Part shown: positions 29,874-39,379 of the stretch, piece by piece | Position numbering within the stretch: position 1 is the stretch's first letter | Layout: each line of letters starts with the position of its first letter | Source of the DNA: Acidobacteriota bacterium | GTDB lineage: Bacteria; Acidobacteriota; Vicinamibacteria; Vicinamibacterales; UBA2999 | Length of the DNA stretch: 55,888 nucleotides | NCBI GenBank assembly: GCA_947482665.1 | Contig: CANKJK010000016.1 | Span: 1 to 55,888 of the forward strand | Direction of reading: 5' to 3' | Translations under genes and position numbers: made by a program | Notes under the pieces: model-generated | Told to the model about the DNA's origin: nothing | The model's database searches: none | The model's input: only the letters and a program-made list of their open reading frames with translations

Positions 29874-29999
29874 CGAGACGGACAGCGGAGGCGCTCATCC
29901 GATGGAGAGAGTCAGGGGAATGGTGCATCGCGTGCAAGGGCTCACGAGTGACACACGCATGAGGCGGTCTGGCATGCCGGCTCAGGTCTGGGTGCGTTG

Positions 30000-30572
30000 A
30001 TGTTCCTCGTCTTCGACACCGAAACGACAGGCATCCCCAAGAACTGGAAGGCTCCAGTCACCGACCTGGACAACTGGCCCCGGTTGGTCGAACTGGCCTG
30101 GTTGTTGTGCGAGCCGGATGGCCGCGTCGTCGAGCAGTACAGCGCGATTGTGCGGCCGGAGGGATTCACGATCCCGGCGGATGCGGCGCGCGTGCACGGC
30201 ATTACGACCGAGCGGGCCATCGAGGAAGGGGAGCCACTGCAGTCGGTGCTGGGAACGTTCGCCGAGGCCGTGGCGTCAGCGGGAACTCTGGTGGCGCACA
30301 ACATGCGCTTCGACGAGAAGATCGTCGGTGCGGAACTGCTCCGTGCGCGCATCCCGAGCGCGTTCGAGGGGAGGCCCCGACAGTGCACGATGCTCTCGTC
30401 GACCGCCTTCTGCGGGCTCCCGGGCAAGTACGGGCCGAAATGGCCAACCCTTGAGGAACTGCACGTGGTGCTCTTCGGGGTCTCCCCGGAGGTAAGCCAC
30501 AAGGCCGGTGCTGACGCCGCCGTCTGCGCCCGGTGTTTCTTCGAGCTGCGGGCGAAGGGCGTATTGCGCTAG
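30000..30572 (+). CDS. DnaQ-like 3'-5' exonuclease family protein
   Basis: This encodes 190 residues from ATG 30000. Exonuclease motifs are in order: Exo I FDTETTG, Exo II with VAHNMRFDEKIV, and Exo III SHKAGADAAVCAR; the acidic residues are all present. This matches standalone DEDDh exonucleases related to PolC/DnaQ epsilon. It may proofread, trim or degrade DNA or RNA. It overlaps the convergent phosphatidyltransferase gene by 4 nt at the 3' ends. Confidence 0.9.
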   Translation: MFLVFDTETTGIPKNWKAPVTDLDNWPRLVELAWLLCEPDGRVVEQYSAIVRPEGFTIPADAARVHGITTERAIEEGEPLQSVLGTFAEAVASAGTLVAHNMRFDEKIVGAELLRARIPSAFEGRPRQCTMLSSTAFCGLPGKYGPKWPTLEELHVVLFGVSPEVSHKAGADAAVCARCFFELRAKGVLR

Positions 30573-31336
30573 AGGAGCTTCCAGCCCGGGAGGCTGGACG
30601 CCATCGGATCCCGCAGCCAGTCCGGCGGGACCAGCCACGTGAAGGCCAGGATCGCCACGACCCAGAGGTCGTAGGCGAGTGTGGCGCGCTCATCCGTCCA
30701 GAAGAACGCCCTCCAGAAGCCACGGGTCAACGCGTTCGAGCCTGCCGGGTTCGGCCGCTTGTTGAGTGCCAGATACGTGTAGTGGATCCGGTTGACGACG
30801 GTGACGATCGAGAGAATCAGGATCACCCACATCACGCCGGCCATCCGGTTCGTGGCCGCGCCGATCATCAGCAGCACGATACGCTCGGGGCGTTCCATGA
30901 AGCCGACCTTGCATTTCGTGATGAGCGACTCGGCCCGCGCCCGCGCGTAGCTCGTCATGATGGAGAACATCATGGCGAGTGAGGCCACCATCACGTAGTC
31001 CGTCCGGCGGAGGCTGGCGTACAGGTAGATGACGCCGAGGAAGAGCGCGATGTCGGAGAAGCGGTCCAGCGTGGAGTCCCAGAATGCGCCGAACTCGGAC
31101 TGCTTGCCGGTGAGGTGCGCCACCTTGCCATCAATGAAGTCGAACATGTTGGCCACGATCATGATGACGAACGCGATCATGAAGTGGCGGCGACCCAGTT
31201 CGACCGCGGCGGCCACGTTGATCAGGACGCCGATGAGGGTGAGCGTATTCGGATGGATCCCGAGGGCGACGCTGGCGCTGATGATGGCGCGCAGCGGGAG
31301 CATGAAGACCGTTCCGATGAAGCCTGTGAACGTCAT
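30569..31336 (-). CDS. CDP-alcohol phosphatidyltransferase family protein
   Basis: This encodes 255 residues with about six membrane segments. The active site reads DFIDGKVAH followed by G83-AFW-D87-STL-D91, which fits the family pattern except that the usual Arg (DGxxAR) is His74. The four aspartates are kept. Such enzymes make phosphatidylglycerophosphate, phosphatidylinositol phosphate or similar lipids. The substrate alcohol cannot be assigned. Its start is 20 bp from the divergent uvrC start. Confidence 0.9.
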   Translation of the reverse strand: MTFTGFIGTVFMLPLRAIISASVALGIHPNTLTLIGVLINVAAAVELGRRHFMIAFVIMIVANMFDFIDGKVAHLTGKQSEFGAFWDSTLDRFSDIALFLGVIYLYASLRRTDYVMVASLAMMFSIMTSYARARAESLITKCKVGFMERPERIVLLMIGAATNRMAGVMWVILILSIVTVVNRIHYTYLALNKRPNPAGSNALTRGFWRAFFWTDERATLAYDLWVVAILAFTWLVPPDWLRDPMASSLPGWKLL

Positions 31337-33872: not shown

Positions 33873-34877
33873 GTGACCAAGACCACGCCTAAACCCCGAG
33901 TCGTCTCGGGCATGCGGCCCACGGGCCGCCTCCACCTCGGCCATCTGGTCGGCGCGCTGCGCAACTGGGTGCCGTTGCAGGAGACGCACGACTGTTTCTA
34001 TTTCGTCGCGGACTGGCACGCGCTGACGAGCGAGTACGCCAACACCGCGCCGATCACCGGCTACGGCCTCGACAACGTCGCCGACTGGCTGGCCGCCGGC
34101 GTCGACCCGGCGAAGAGCACGATCTTCGTGCAGTCGCTGGTGCCCGAGCATGCGGAGCTCTTCCTCCTGCTCTCGATGGTGGTGCCGATTCCGTGGTTGG
34201 AGCGGGTGCCGACCTACAAGGAGCTCCAGGAGCAGCTCGCGGAAAAGGACCTTTCGACCCTCGGCTTTCTGTCGTACCCGCTGCTGCAGACCGCTGACGT
34301 GGCGATGTATGACGGCCGTTTCGTGCCGGTCGGTGAGGACCAGGTGGCGCATCTGGAACTCTCCCGCGAGGTGATCCGCCGCTTCCAGCAGTTCTATGGC
34401 GACGTCCTGGTGGAGCCGCAGCCGCTGCTGACGCCGGTGTCGCGTCTCCCCGGGCTCGACAATCGGAAGATGAGCAAGAGCTACGGCAACACCATCGACC
34501 TGAGCGATGACGCCGCGTCGGTCCTGAAGAAGGTCCGGCAGATGTACACGGACCCGAAGCGTGTGCGCGCGGACATCCCCGGGACGGTGGAGGGGAATCC
34601 CGTGTTCATGTATCACGACGCCTTCAACCCGAACGTCGCGGAAGTCGAGGACCTCAAAGCGCGCTATCGCGCCGGTGCGGTGGGCGACGTGGAAGTGAAG
34701 ACGAAGCTGGCGGCGGCGATGAACGCCGGGCTGGAGCCGATGCGCGAGAAGCGGGCGACGCTGCTGGCGCGGCCCGACGACCTGCGCGACATCATGATCG
34801 ACGGCTCGCGGAAGGCCCGGCTCGTGGCGCAGGAGACGATGGCCCGCGTGCGCGACGCCGTCAGGCTGACCTACTAG
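33873..34877 (+). CDS. trpS: Tryptophanyl-tRNA synthetase
   Basis: This encodes 334 residues, the normal TrpS length, from GTG 33873. Class I signatures are HLGHLVGALRNW (HIGH) near the N-terminus and RKMSKSYGN (KMSKS) near 200. PTGRLHLGH and FFVADWHALT-like sequence (here FYFVADWHALTSEY) complete the Trp site. The open frame continues upstream to about 33306, but that stretch shadows the site-2 protease gene. It is followed by scpA with a 1-nt overlap. Confidence 0.97.
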   Translation: MTKTTPKPRVVSGMRPTGRLHLGHLVGALRNWVPLQETHDCFYFVADWHALTSEYANTAPITGYGLDNVADWLAAGVDPAKSTIFVQSLVPEHAELFLLLSMVVPIPWLERVPTYKELQEQLAEKDLSTLGFLSYPLLQTADVAMYDGRFVPVGEDQVAHLELSREVIRRFQQFYGDVLVEPQPLLTPVSRLPGLDNRKMSKSYGNTIDLSDDAASVLKKVRQMYTDPKRVRADIPGTVEGNPVFMYHDAFNPNVAEVEDLKARYRAGAVGDVEVKTKLAAAMNAGLEPMREKRATLLARPDDLRDIMIDGSRKARLVAQETMARVRDAVRLTY

Positions 34878-35695
34878 TGGCCCCGATGGATCCCGAGGAC
34901 TTCGAATCGTCGCCGGACGCCTACCGCGTCAGGCTCTCGGCGTTTGAGGGGCCGCTCGACCTGCTGCTACACCTGATCAGGAAGAACCAGGTCAACATCT
35001 ACGAGATCCCGATCGCTCTCATCACCGAGCAGTACCTGCTGTACATCGAGGTGATGCAGGAGCTGAATCTCGACGTGGCGGGCGAGTTTCTGGTGATGGC
35101 GTCGACGCTCATCCACATCAAGTCAAAGGCCATCCTGCCTCGGCCGGAGACGGCGGCGACGGACGGCGAACCCGACGAGGATCCGCGCGAGACACTCGTC
35201 CGGCGCCTCCTCGAGCACGAGAAATACAAAGCCGCCGCCGAGATGCTGCACGACAAGGAGACGGTCCGGAGTGCCCAGTGGATGCGGCCGGACACGAGCG
35301 TGGCCGCGGCCGCCGGAGACGCCTACGAGCCGGAGATGGAGGTGGATCTCTTCAGCCTCATCGCCGCGTTCAAGGGCGTGCTGCAGCGGGCGAACCGCCG
35401 ACCCAGAGTGTTCCTGCCTCCCGAAAACCTGTCGATCGAGGACCGGATTCAGCAGCTGCTGGGACGGCTGTCGGAGACTGACGCGTGCGGGTTCGAGGAG
35501 CTCTTCGCGGACGGGGATGGCAGCCGCGGGTTCATGATCGTCACCTTCCTGGCCGTGCTGGAAATGATCCGGCTGAAGGTGATCCGGGTGTTCCAGGGTG
35601 GCGCCTTTGGAGACATTCGCGTCTACAAGCGCGCCCGCCCGGCTGATGCGCCCAATCCGATGGGCCACGCCGCACAGTTGAAGCCGACGGAGTAA
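34877..35695 (+). CDS. scpA: Segregation and condensation protein A
   Basis: This encodes 272 residues from GTG 34877, overlapping the trpS stop; ATG 34886 (MDPEDFES) is an equally good start. The kleisin N-terminal signature is FEGPLDLLLHLIRKNQVNIYEIPIALITEQYL, split by function into SMC-neck contacts, and AGEFLVMASTLIHIKSKAIL follows. The C-terminal winged helix ends the protein. ScpA bridges SMC heads in the bacterial condensin. scpB follows after 6 nt. Confidence 0.95.
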   Translation: MAPMDPEDFESSPDAYRVRLSAFEGPLDLLLHLIRKNQVNIYEIPIALITEQYLLYIEVMQELNLDVAGEFLVMASTLIHIKSKAILPRPETAATDGEPDEDPRETLVRRLLEHEKYKAAAEMLHDKETVRSAQWMRPDTSVAAAAGDAYEPEMEVDLFSLIAAFKGVLQRANRRPRVFLPPENLSIEDRIQQLLGRLSETDACGFEELFADGDGSRGFMIVTFLAVLEMIRLKVIRVFQGGAFGDIRVYKRARPADAPNPMGHAAQLKPTE

Positions 35696-35701
35696 CAGGA
35701 C

Positions 35702-36652
35702 ATGTCGATGGACGAGAACGAGATGCCGGACGCGGAGCCGACCGAACTGGCCGACGACGGGGCGTCGGATGAGGTCGCCGTCGCGGTGGACGGCGCAGAA
35801 GACGGTGGTGCCGAGGGTGCCGAACTCGCCGCGGATGATGTGGCTGAGGGCGGGATCATCCCGGTGCCCGAGGGGCCCATGGCGACGATGCCCTCGGCGG
35901 AGCTGAAGGCCATCGTCGAGGCGCTGGTGTTTGCCTCGCCCGAGCCGCTCACGCCGAAGATCCTGTGCAAGATTCTGGCGACCGAGCCGAAGGAGGATGT
36001 GCTCGCGGCCGTTGCGGCGCTCCAGGCCGACTACGCCGAGAGGCCCGGGCTCACGTGGGTGGAGGTTGCCGGCGGCCATCAGATTGTGACGCGCCCGGAA
36101 CTGCATGAATGGGTGCGGCGGCTCTTCCATGAGCGCTCCACGCAGAAGCTCACCGTGCAGGCGCTTGAGACGCTGGCCGTGATTGCCTACAAGCAGCCGA
36201 TCACCTCGGCCGAAATCACCGAGGTGCGCGGCGTGAACACGTCTGGCGTGCTCTCGACGCTGCTCGAGCGGCATCTCATCAAGATCGTGGGCCGGAAGAA
36301 TGTCGTGGGCCGGCCCTTCCTCTACGCCACCACAAAGGAGTTCCTGATCCGCTTCGGCCTCAATGACCTTGGCGACCTGCCGCGGATCGAGGACATGGCG
36401 CAGGCGCTCGGTTTTGATCCGCCGGCGGGCCTCATGGAACTGGCGCCCGCCGACGACGTACTGCCGCTTACCGAGATCGGCGACGGGGAGGAGCCGAGCC
36501 TCTGGTCGTCCGCGTCGGTTTCGGTCGAGACGACGGTGGTCGAGACGACGCTGGGCGAGATGACGGCGGACGAGACGACGGTGGACGAGACGACGGTGGA
36601 CGAGACGACGCCGAACGCGGAGATGCCGGAGCCGGACGCGCCGTCCGAGTAG
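35702..36652 (+). CDS. scpB: Segregation and condensation protein B with acidic repeat tail
   Basis: This encodes 316 residues. About 60 acidic N-terminal residues precede the two winged helices (ELKAIVEALVFASPEPLT through LTVQALETLAVIAYKQPITSAEI and GRPFLYATTKEFLIRFGL). The C-terminal 60 residues are low complexity, built on ETTVD/ETTVV units encoded by six 15-bp tandem repeats (36524-36613). That repeat also encodes the tail of the convergent pseudouridine synthase, with 185 bp of overlap. The core partners ScpA and SMC in chromosome segregation. Confidence 0.95.
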   Translation: MSMDENEMPDAEPTELADDGASDEVAVAVDGAEDGGAEGAELAADDVAEGGIIPVPEGPMATMPSAELKAIVEALVFASPEPLTPKILCKILATEPKEDVLAAVAALQADYAERPGLTWVEVAGGHQIVTRPELHEWVRRLFHERSTQKLTVQALETLAVIAYKQPITSAEITEVRGVNTSGVLSTLLERHLIKIVGRKNVVGRPFLYATTKEFLIRFGLNDLGDLPRIEDMAQALGFDPPAGLMELAPADDVLPLTEIGDGEEPSLWSSASVSVETTVVETTLGEMTADETTVDETTVDETTPNAEMPEPDAPSE

Positions 36653-37469
36653 CCGGCCGGCGCGGCTTGGTCCTGCCGGACTTGCGCGCGGCCGTTTCCC
36701 GCGCGGCGCCAATCGCGTCACCAACTGGGCGCGGCGCGACGGCGCGGCTTGCGTGCCGGCGCAGGGACGCCACTTCGGCCGGCGTGATATCGCGCCAGTA
36801 GCCAGGGCGCAAGGCGTGGTCCGAGAGTGGACCGATGCGCGTGCGCACGAGTCGATCAACCGGATGGCCGACGGCCTCGAGCATCCGCCGCACCTGCCGA
36901 TTCCGGCCTTCCGTGATGACCAGCCGCACGACCCCCTCTGTCTCGCGGTGCCCTGGATTGAGTACCTCCGCTTGGGCGGGCAGCGTCCGCCGTCCATCCA
37001 GCGGGATCCCGCGGCGCAGCCGCGCCAGCGCATCCGCATCCGGCATCCCCGCCACATGTGCCTCGTACGTCCGTTCCACGCCGTGACGTGGATGGGTCAA
37101 CAAGGCGGCAAGATCGCCGTCGTTGGTCAGGATGAGCAGGCCCTCCGTGTCGTAGTCAAGCCGGCCGACGGGGTAGACGTACTCGGTCACGCCTCTGAGC
37201 AGGTCCATGACGGTGCGACGCCGCTGCGGGTCGCTGAGCGTCGTGACGACGCCGCGCGGCTTGTAGAGCAGGACGTAGCGGCGGCGGGCATCGGACTTGA
37301 CCCGGCGCCCGTCCACCCGGATATCGTCCGTGGCGAGGTCCGCCTTCGAGCCCAGTTCGCTCACCGTGTGGCCGTTGACTGTGACGCGGCCGTCCGCGAT
37401 CAGTGTTTCGGCCGTACGCCGCGAGGCGACGCCGGCGTGCGAGAGAATCTTCTGTATTCGTTCTTCCAC
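36468..37469 (-). CDS. RluB/RluE/RluF-type rRNA pseudouridine synthase
   Basis: This encodes 333 residues from GTG 37469 with AGAAGG upstream. An S4 RNA-binding domain (QKILSHAGVASRRTAETLIADGRVTVNG) is followed by the catalytic domain with the Asp in VGRLDYDTEGLLILTNDG and EGRNRQVRRMLEAVGHPV. A Pro/Arg/Ser-rich tail of about 90 residues is built on SSRPP repeats, likely RNA-binding. The tail is encoded opposite the scpB tail. It would convert a uridine of 23S rRNA; the exact site is not evident. Confidence 0.93.
   Translation of the reverse strand: MEERIQKILSHAGVASRRTAETLIADGRVTVNGHTVSELGSKADLATDDIRVDGRRVKSDARRRYVLLYKPRGVVTTLSDPQRRRTVMDLLRGVTEYVYPVGRLDYDTEGLLILTNDGDLAALLTHPRHGVERTYEAHVAGMPDADALARLRRGIPLDGRRTLPAQAEVLNPGHRETEGVVRLVITEGRNRQVRRMLEAVGHPVDRLVRTRIGPLSDHALRPGYWRDITPAEVASLRRHASRAVAPRPVGDAIGAARETAARKSGRTKPRRPATRTARPAPASPRSASSRPPSSRPPSSRPPSSRPASSRPPSSRPKPTRTTRGSAPPRRRSR
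36524..36613. repeat. Six 15-bp tandem repeats shared by two convergent genes
   Basis: Units of the form GACGAGACGACGGTG. In the plus frame each encodes [V/D]-E-T-T-V (scpB tail); in the minus frame each encodes SSRPP (pseudouridine synthase tail). The last three units are nearly identical, which suggests recent expansion. Confidence 0.85.
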
Positions 37470-38524: not shown

Positions 38525-39379
38525 TCAGTCGCGTTCCTCGAAGTCCTCGCTCGACTCCGGGTCGAGTTCCCAGCGGTCTTCGTCGCGGTGCGCGATCTTC
38601 TCCTCGCCACCGAGTTCTTCGTCGTCGGCGTATTCCATCCCCAGGGCCTGGCCGATCTCATCGACCACATCCTGGTCCGGTGTCGTGTTCTCGCCTCCGG
38701 GGGCCTCATCGCCCACGGTATAGGCGGCTTCCCAGTCCGCGTCCACATCCCCGGCCGTGATAGCCGGGCTGACCTGCGTCACTTCGCGCCGGTGAGCGGC
38801 GGCTTCGTGCCGGCCGCTCCTGGCGGAGGATGCCGTACGGTTCAGGTCGAGTGAGGAGGGCGGACTTGGTTCGCCTTCGACTTCTGCGATGGTCTTCCGC
38901 ACACGTTCGAGCGCCGGCACCTTCCGGACCTTGGCCGGGGAGGCGGAGGTGACCTTCGGCGCGGCCGCGCGGACCACCGGCCGGGCGGGTGCGAACTTCC
39001 GGACTGCGGGCTTCGGGGCCGTCTTCTTCACGGCTGCCTTCTTCACCGCTGCCTTCTGGAGCACCGCCTTCTTCAGAACGGCCCTTTTCGGGGCCGCTTT
39101 CCTGGGGGCCACCTTCTTCGGCGCAGCTTTTCGGGGAAGGGGCTTCCGGTTGGCGGCCTTCTTCACCGCCTTCTTCGCCGAGGTCGGCTTCTTCAAGACG
39201 GCTTTCTTCGGGGCCGCCTTCTTTACGGGCTTCCGCGGCACCGTCTTGCGGGCCGGTTGTGCTGGCTTTTTGGCCGCAGAGGCCTTCTTCGGCCTGACGG
39301 TTCGCGACGCCCGTGCTGCCGTCGTGCGCTTGGCTGTTGTCCGCCGTGTGGCTCGCGCTGCTGGCTTCCGTTTGGCCAT
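38525..39379 (-). CDS. Histone H1-like protein fused to a DUF6335 domain
   Basis: This encodes 284 residues from ATG 39379, with AGGAG 7 nt upstream. Residues 1-150 are Lys/Ala/Pro-rich with repeated KKAAPKKAVLKK-like and KAAPKR units, as in bacterial H1-like DNA-binding proteins. After a linker, residues of about 200-280 are acidic and read as DUF6335: SPAITAGDVDADWEAAYTVG, PDQDVVDEIGQALG, HRDEDRWELDPESSEDF. H1-like tails normally bind DNA or compact chromatin; DUF6335 has no known function. A fusion of the two is unusual and suggests charge-based chromosome binding. Confidence 0.85.
   Translation of the reverse strand: MAKRKPAARATRRTTAKRTTAARASRTVRPKKASAAKKPAQPARKTVPRKPVKKAAPKKAVLKKPTSAKKAVKKAANRKPLPRKAAPKKVAPRKAAPKRAVLKKAVLQKAAVKKAAVKKTAPKPAVRKFAPARPVVRAAAPKVTSASPAKVRKVPALERVRKTIAEVEGEPSPPSSLDLNRTASSARSGRHEAAAHRREVTQVSPAITAGDVDADWEAAYTVGDEAPGGENTTPDQDVVDEIGQALGMEYADDEELGGEEKIAHRDEDRWELDPESSEDFEERD

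Follow-up and report, generated by a model that had tools for sequence, protein, structure and literature searches.

The scpB gene and the gene of an RsuA/RluB-type pseudouridine synthase (hereinafter rsuA) overlap tail to tail in the stretch of DNA analysed here (the window, 55.9 kb in full), and 15-bp units repeated within this overlap encode part of an acidic ScpB tail on one strand and part of a basic synthase tail on the other (Table 1). Judged from the sequence and its relatives, this overlap is genuine and of a kind that recurs in related genomes, with a locally expanded dual-coding repeat. The best explanation, which is considered probable, is that in-frame tandem duplication extended an overlap that had once been shorter. 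The observed part of this explanation consists of the overlap, the repeat, the codon phase shared with relatives, and tail charges that occur also without overlap.

The gene pair and the repeat in its overlap

Table 1. Features of the scpB-rsuA locus, with positions in the window
Feature	Position	Strand	Support or reading
scpA, partner gene upstream of scpB	34877..35695	+	PF02616 E 7.4e-37
scpB, SMC-Scp complex subunit ScpB, 316 aa, stop TAG at 36650-36652	35702..36652	+	PF04079 E 9.5e-51, TIGR00281 E 3.3e-38
ScpB conserved domain (PF04079, residues 70-229 of 316), outside the overlap	35909..36388	+	domain match
rsuA, RsuA/RluB-type pseudouridine synthase, 333 aa, GTG start, stop TAA at 36468-36470	36468..37469	-	S4 + PF00849, TIGR00093
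Pseudouridine synthase conserved core (TIGR00093, residues 69-229 of 333), outside the overlap	36783..37265	-	domain match
Convergent overlap, 185 bp, codon phase 123:132 (length = 2 mod 3)	36468..36652	both	two open frames
Six 15-bp units, consensus GACGAGACGACGGTG	36524..36613	both	ScpB (V/D)ETTV, synthase SSRPP

Both frames are open throughout the 185 bp, as the initial annotation had claimed, and the pair consists of two domain-supported genes on opposite strands that overlap at their 3' coding ends. Its first residue is approximately number 256 in ScpB and 273 in the synthase, past both domains, and the overlap thus comprises the tails. The synthase matches TIGR00093 with 168.8 bits (cut-off 109.3) and PF00849 at residues 65-199; against the RluB (23S U2605) equivalog NF007976, it scores 144.6 bits, under the cut-off of 290, and on these profile matches the predicted enzyme is placed at the subfamily level only (TIGR00093). 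The source genome is a draft of 38 contigs and 3.53 Mb. Nine other convergent pairs in the window include no overlap longer than 4 bp in a crude codon-model gene call, which missed rsuA itself, so that the base rate of convergent pairs is only rough. In the same gene call, a second predicted convergent pair (29997-30572 / 30569-31336) overlaps by 4 bp. An open frame of 644 codons on the minus strand (35123-37057) runs antisense through scpB and is probably no gene but a side effect of GC-rich coding.

Tandem Repeats Finder identifies the array as 15 bp x 5.7 copies with 88% matches (36526-36610, score 135, or 143 as a 45-bp period), the strongest in the window, where the runner-up scores 56. 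The six units are read in ScpB as VETTV VETTL GEMTA DETTV DETTV DETTP and in the synthase as SSRPP (four times), SSRPA and SSRPK (once each). Across the overlap, ScpB has 17 acidic and no basic residues among 60, and the synthase 16 basic and no acidic ones among 60. The proposal that one 15-bp repeat encodes an acidic ScpB tail together with a basic synthase tail is borne out for all six units in both frames. The same applies to the proposal that unit number would alter both tails jointly because, 15 being a multiple of 3, gain or loss of whole units would lengthen or shorten both. The 185-bp form with six units is found in the window alone among 150 loci, the window representing one genome of its genus. 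Elsewhere in the window, a second 15-bp array (GGCCGCCTTCTTCAC x 3.9, 39017-39075) lies within a predicted minus-strand gene (38525-39379); by eye, one minus-strand frame of this unit gives a Lys/Ala-rich repeat.

Overlaps among related loci

The survey comprised 220 loci including the window, of which 70 that share an identical scpB stretch were removed, leaving 150 distinct loci. In 57 of these, scpB is convergent with rsuA (five have gaps of more than 500 bp, hence the two genes are not neighbours); both genes lie on the same strand in 72, no rsuA is present in the fetched stretch in 18, and three run off the contig. One small, 78%-complete draft genome (G008) contains two scpB matches (C23 and C10), which may reflect a mixed assembly or a duplication. 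Overlaps longer than 4 bp are present in 20 of the 57 convergent loci, so that relatives share the arrangement, and the pair forms a series in related genomes, from gaps through 4 bp up to 248 bp.

The clade of the window (20 rows, SH-aLRT 96 in a quick tree of 87 rows) includes 18 loci in which rsuA was read, 11 with an overlap longer than 4 bp and seven without. Apart from the window, these overlaps comprise nine of 53-110 bp in phase 123:132 and one of 39 bp in another phase (L062). In the tree of 87 rows, the overlapping state switches at least nine times among the convergent rows. Overlaps thus come and go and, given these changes, a single old overlap retained ever since is not established. 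In family f4, four loci from two genera show overlaps of 188-248 bp; the synthases of L038, L039, L182 and L183 share a similar C-terminal RPSGGRxGR, antisense to conserved ScpB sequence. L181, from the fifth f4 genome with a match, falls outside the convergent rows.

Codon phase and tail charge

The window overlap is in the commonest phase of this series: 123:132 accounts for 17 of the 20 overlaps longer than 4 bp and for all 17 of those of at least 53 bp (all 2 mod 3), the overlaps of 39, 12 and 7 bp being in other phases. Because the loci share ancestry, 17 of 17 overcounts the independent events, which are far fewer than 17, and shared descent explains part of the pattern. In phase 123:132, the second codon position of each protein faces the wobble position of the other, and an open frame, unlike in 123:321, soon reaches a stop codon. 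Antisense stops in the last 60 scpB codons number 42/2242 in 123:132, 7/2280 in 123:321 and 9/2242 in 123:213; the corresponding counts for the last 60 rsuA codons are 55/2242, 14/2280 and 25/2242 (both sets take in overlapping loci). The scpB domain yields 244/5282, 14/5320 and 131/5282, respectively, and in the rsuA domain 123:132 (148/5068) is close to 123:213 (153/5068). When each gene is read in its own frame past its real stop at loci with gaps of up to 110 bp, all eight overlaps that result in 123:132 measure 83-242 bp. The ten in 123:321 range from 24 to 1686 bp, with a median of 192 for one gene and 907.5 for the other, and the three in 123:213 measure 67, 190 and 289 bp. Stop spacing alone was considered as the cause of the phase and works against 123:321 but fails against 123:213; that is, it can explain the absence of the former from long overlaps and not that of the latter. 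What sets 123:213 apart may be charge: read antisense, 76 non-overlapping scpB tails give 2% Lys+Arg in 123:213 versus 27% in 123:132.

Tail charges were counted in the loci with both tails of at least 6 aa, which leaves out shorter ones, including the overlapping L010. Every ScpB tail of the overlapping (14/14) and of the convergent non-overlapping loci (15/15) carries a net negative charge, as do 38/39 of those in same-strand loci; for a net positive charge of the synthase tail, the counts are 14/14, 15/15 and 32/39, respectively. Read antisense in 123:132, the same 76 scpB tails are 27% Arg and 19% Pro, with acidic residues at 3%. Given that scpB tails without any overlap are also Arg/Pro-rich and acid-poor when read antisense, the genetic code in this phase accounts for most of the acidic/basic match in GC-rich DNA, where acidic GA(C/G)-rich codons are read as Arg, Pro and Ser, which suits the pre-existing charges of the tails. 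Charge complementarity was therefore rejected as evidence for co-selection or co-design: the code mostly accounts for it, and both charges occur without overlap. For overlaps longer than 40 bp in the set of loci from which these tails were taken, rsuA has a third-position GC of 0.31-0.57 within the overlap versus 0.73-0.95 in the domain (13 of 14; L072 is the exception, with 0.79 inside the overlap), and that of scpB stays at 0.74-1.00 in those overlaps. Most simply, this DNA would have the composition of a scpB tail, over which the synthase frame reads.

Origin of the overlap and comparison with known systems

These observations are best compatible with growth of the overlap in two steps. Loss of a stop codon in one gene would first have carried its frame into the flexible tail of its neighbour, giving an overlap in the 53-110 bp size range; later, in-frame tandem duplication of a 15-bp unit, presumably by slippage or recombination, would have extended it, each duplication adding five residues to both proteins with neither frame shifted. 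The 185 bp minus six units leave 95 bp, an arithmetic remainder and not a reconstructed ancestor, which falls in the range of 53-110 bp that the nine 123:132 overlaps of clade relatives span. Tandem repeats are found in four of the six overlaps of at least 185 bp, with periods of 15/45, 15, 27 and 21/6 bp, all of them multiples of 3, and in none of the 14 shorter overlaps; the four represent three lineages (the window, L038/L039 and L080). An array was counted if at least half of it lies within the overlap, which leaves out a 7-bp array that only reaches the end of the overlap in L010. A rule that every overlap longer than 180 bp contains a repeat (4/4) fell to 4/6 once L182 and L183 were included; these overlaps are long (188 and 221 bp) without a tandem repeat, and therefore repeats are not the sole route to length. 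Tandem arrays are also common elsewhere, including the tails of non-overlapping loci, which implies that the overlap does not cause arrays, and the figures for repeats within overlaps are plain counts. In the non-overlapping locus L050, the rsuA tail and the sequence past it (1772-2106) contain tandem arrays that are long (28, 84 and 112 bp).

According to the lengthening explanation, the tails would mostly be tolerated flexible extensions and not a regulatory device. The alternative that the overlap is a selected dual-coding element, with a basic tail functional for rRNA and an acidic one for ScpB and with unit number tuning both, is considered unlikely, even though several counts point its way. 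All eight inter-unit differences alter ScpB and six of the eight leave the synthase sequence unchanged, as would 15 of the 45 single changes that the consensus allows (binomial by hand, ~0.02, or ~0.045 for four of five distinct events, the units not being independent). Between L038 and L039, fourfold-silent divergence is lower inside the overlap both for scpB (4/34 versus 24/69, p 0.018) and for rsuA (7/52 versus 28/98, p 0.043), and these codon statistics suggest selection over mere tolerance; six pooled f4 pairs, which are not independent, give 39/133 inside versus 181/423 for scpB. In contrast, the same signal was sought by fourfold-silent divergence in the window's own clade and was not found, with no clear effect among 45 pooled pairs (scpB, 94/227 versus 1818/3825; rsuA, 195/437 versus 2442/4559). 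Homologous codons are alike in overlapping and non-overlapping relatives (44/132 versus 33/94), and seven of 18 loci of the clade have no overlap longer than 4 bp. Furthermore, excerpts of PMC3919597 describe the last 40 residues of E. coli RluB as predicted to be disordered and poorly conserved among RluBs, which fits tolerated tails. Overall, the evidence for selection on the two tails is modest, most of it from another family (f4); mild constraint on both may exist, and strong claims would be unjustified. A related possibility, a self-complementary coding repeat through which convergent genes with acidic and basic tails merge and the tails then grow in lock-step via one minisatellite, is judged quite improbable; if true, a chromosome-loading factor and an rRNA-modifying enzyme, two proteins unrelated to each other, would owe both their charge and their length to a single minisatellite.

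Regulation in antisense, with complementary mRNA 3' ends pairing or transcription colliding so as to couple scpB and rsuA expression, is very unlikely. The transcripts, if both are made, would be complementary over at least 185 nt, and a consensus scan of 36300-37000 finds no intrinsic-terminator-like site and, more generally, no promoter-like or terminator-like sites. However, the predicted RNA fold of the overlap is unremarkable (z = 0.28, with 119 of 200 shuffles folding as well), so that a structured mRNA across the overlap was discarded, and an overlap longer than 4 bp is missing in 37 of the 57 convergent loci, with both genes on one strand in 72 others. The antisense coupling proposed for this pair thus finds no supporting signal at this locus, and neither does switching through the number of units. 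It is likewise highly improbable that an assembly error or a frameshift made one of the tails. The draft state of the genome and its position as the single representative of its genus in the comparison would be compatible with such an error, as would the classification of 124 of 178 convergent overlaps longer than 60 bp in 338 genomes as misannotations (excerpts of PMC2478687); but both frames continue from strong domains, the tail charges match those of relatives, same-phase overlaps recur up to 248 bp, and miscounted units would still leave both frames intact. The initial annotation had named earlier stop codons in relatives as the mark of an artefact. This holds for the seven clade loci without an overlap longer than 4 bp and is contradicted by the other 11 and by the four f4 genomes with 188-248 bp; given this recurrence, f4 included, the overlap is not a local error of one assembly, and a purely local artefact was rejected.

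Long convergent overlaps are often blamed on annotation errors, and the scpB-rsuA pair provides a series among related genomes, in which all overlaps of at least 53 bp share one phase and four of the six longest contain in-frame repeats. Flexible tails of opposite charge, acidic and basic, are natural antisense partners by virtue of the code, and tandem duplication can extend two proteins together; what is known of ScpB or of the synthase itself is unchanged. The overlap is no new device but a long example, swollen by repeats, of a type of gene overlap already known. In prokaryotes, long overlaps of convergent genes were reportedly described by Rogozin in 2002. Among the matches listed in an open-licence literature search (titles and beginnings of abstracts), none concerns a tandem repeat that encodes the tails of two convergent genes, and none an scpB-rsuA overlap.

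According to excerpts of Lillo and Krakauer 2007 (PMC2174442) and Palleja 2008 (PMC2478687), long convergent overlaps of prokaryotes are, like this one, tail to tail and are ascribed to stop-codon change; the distinction is that here a tandem repeat within the overlap encodes part of both tails. Across prokaryotes, excerpts of PMC2174442 place 49% of 1218 convergent overlaps of 5 bp or longer in 123:132, their commonest phase, compared with every scpB-rsuA overlap of at least 53 bp. As in low-complexity, repeat-built protein tails, in-frame units lengthen the C-terminus, and repeats are likewise present in tail regions of the non-overlapping L019, L020 and L077, but here the gene on the opposite strand reads the same units too. 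In shifted-frame tandem repeats, as far as excerpts of PMC12871928 describe them, an alternative frame similarly raises arginine and lowers acidic content; those cases concern frameshifted reading, whereas here the two frames belong to two convergent genes.
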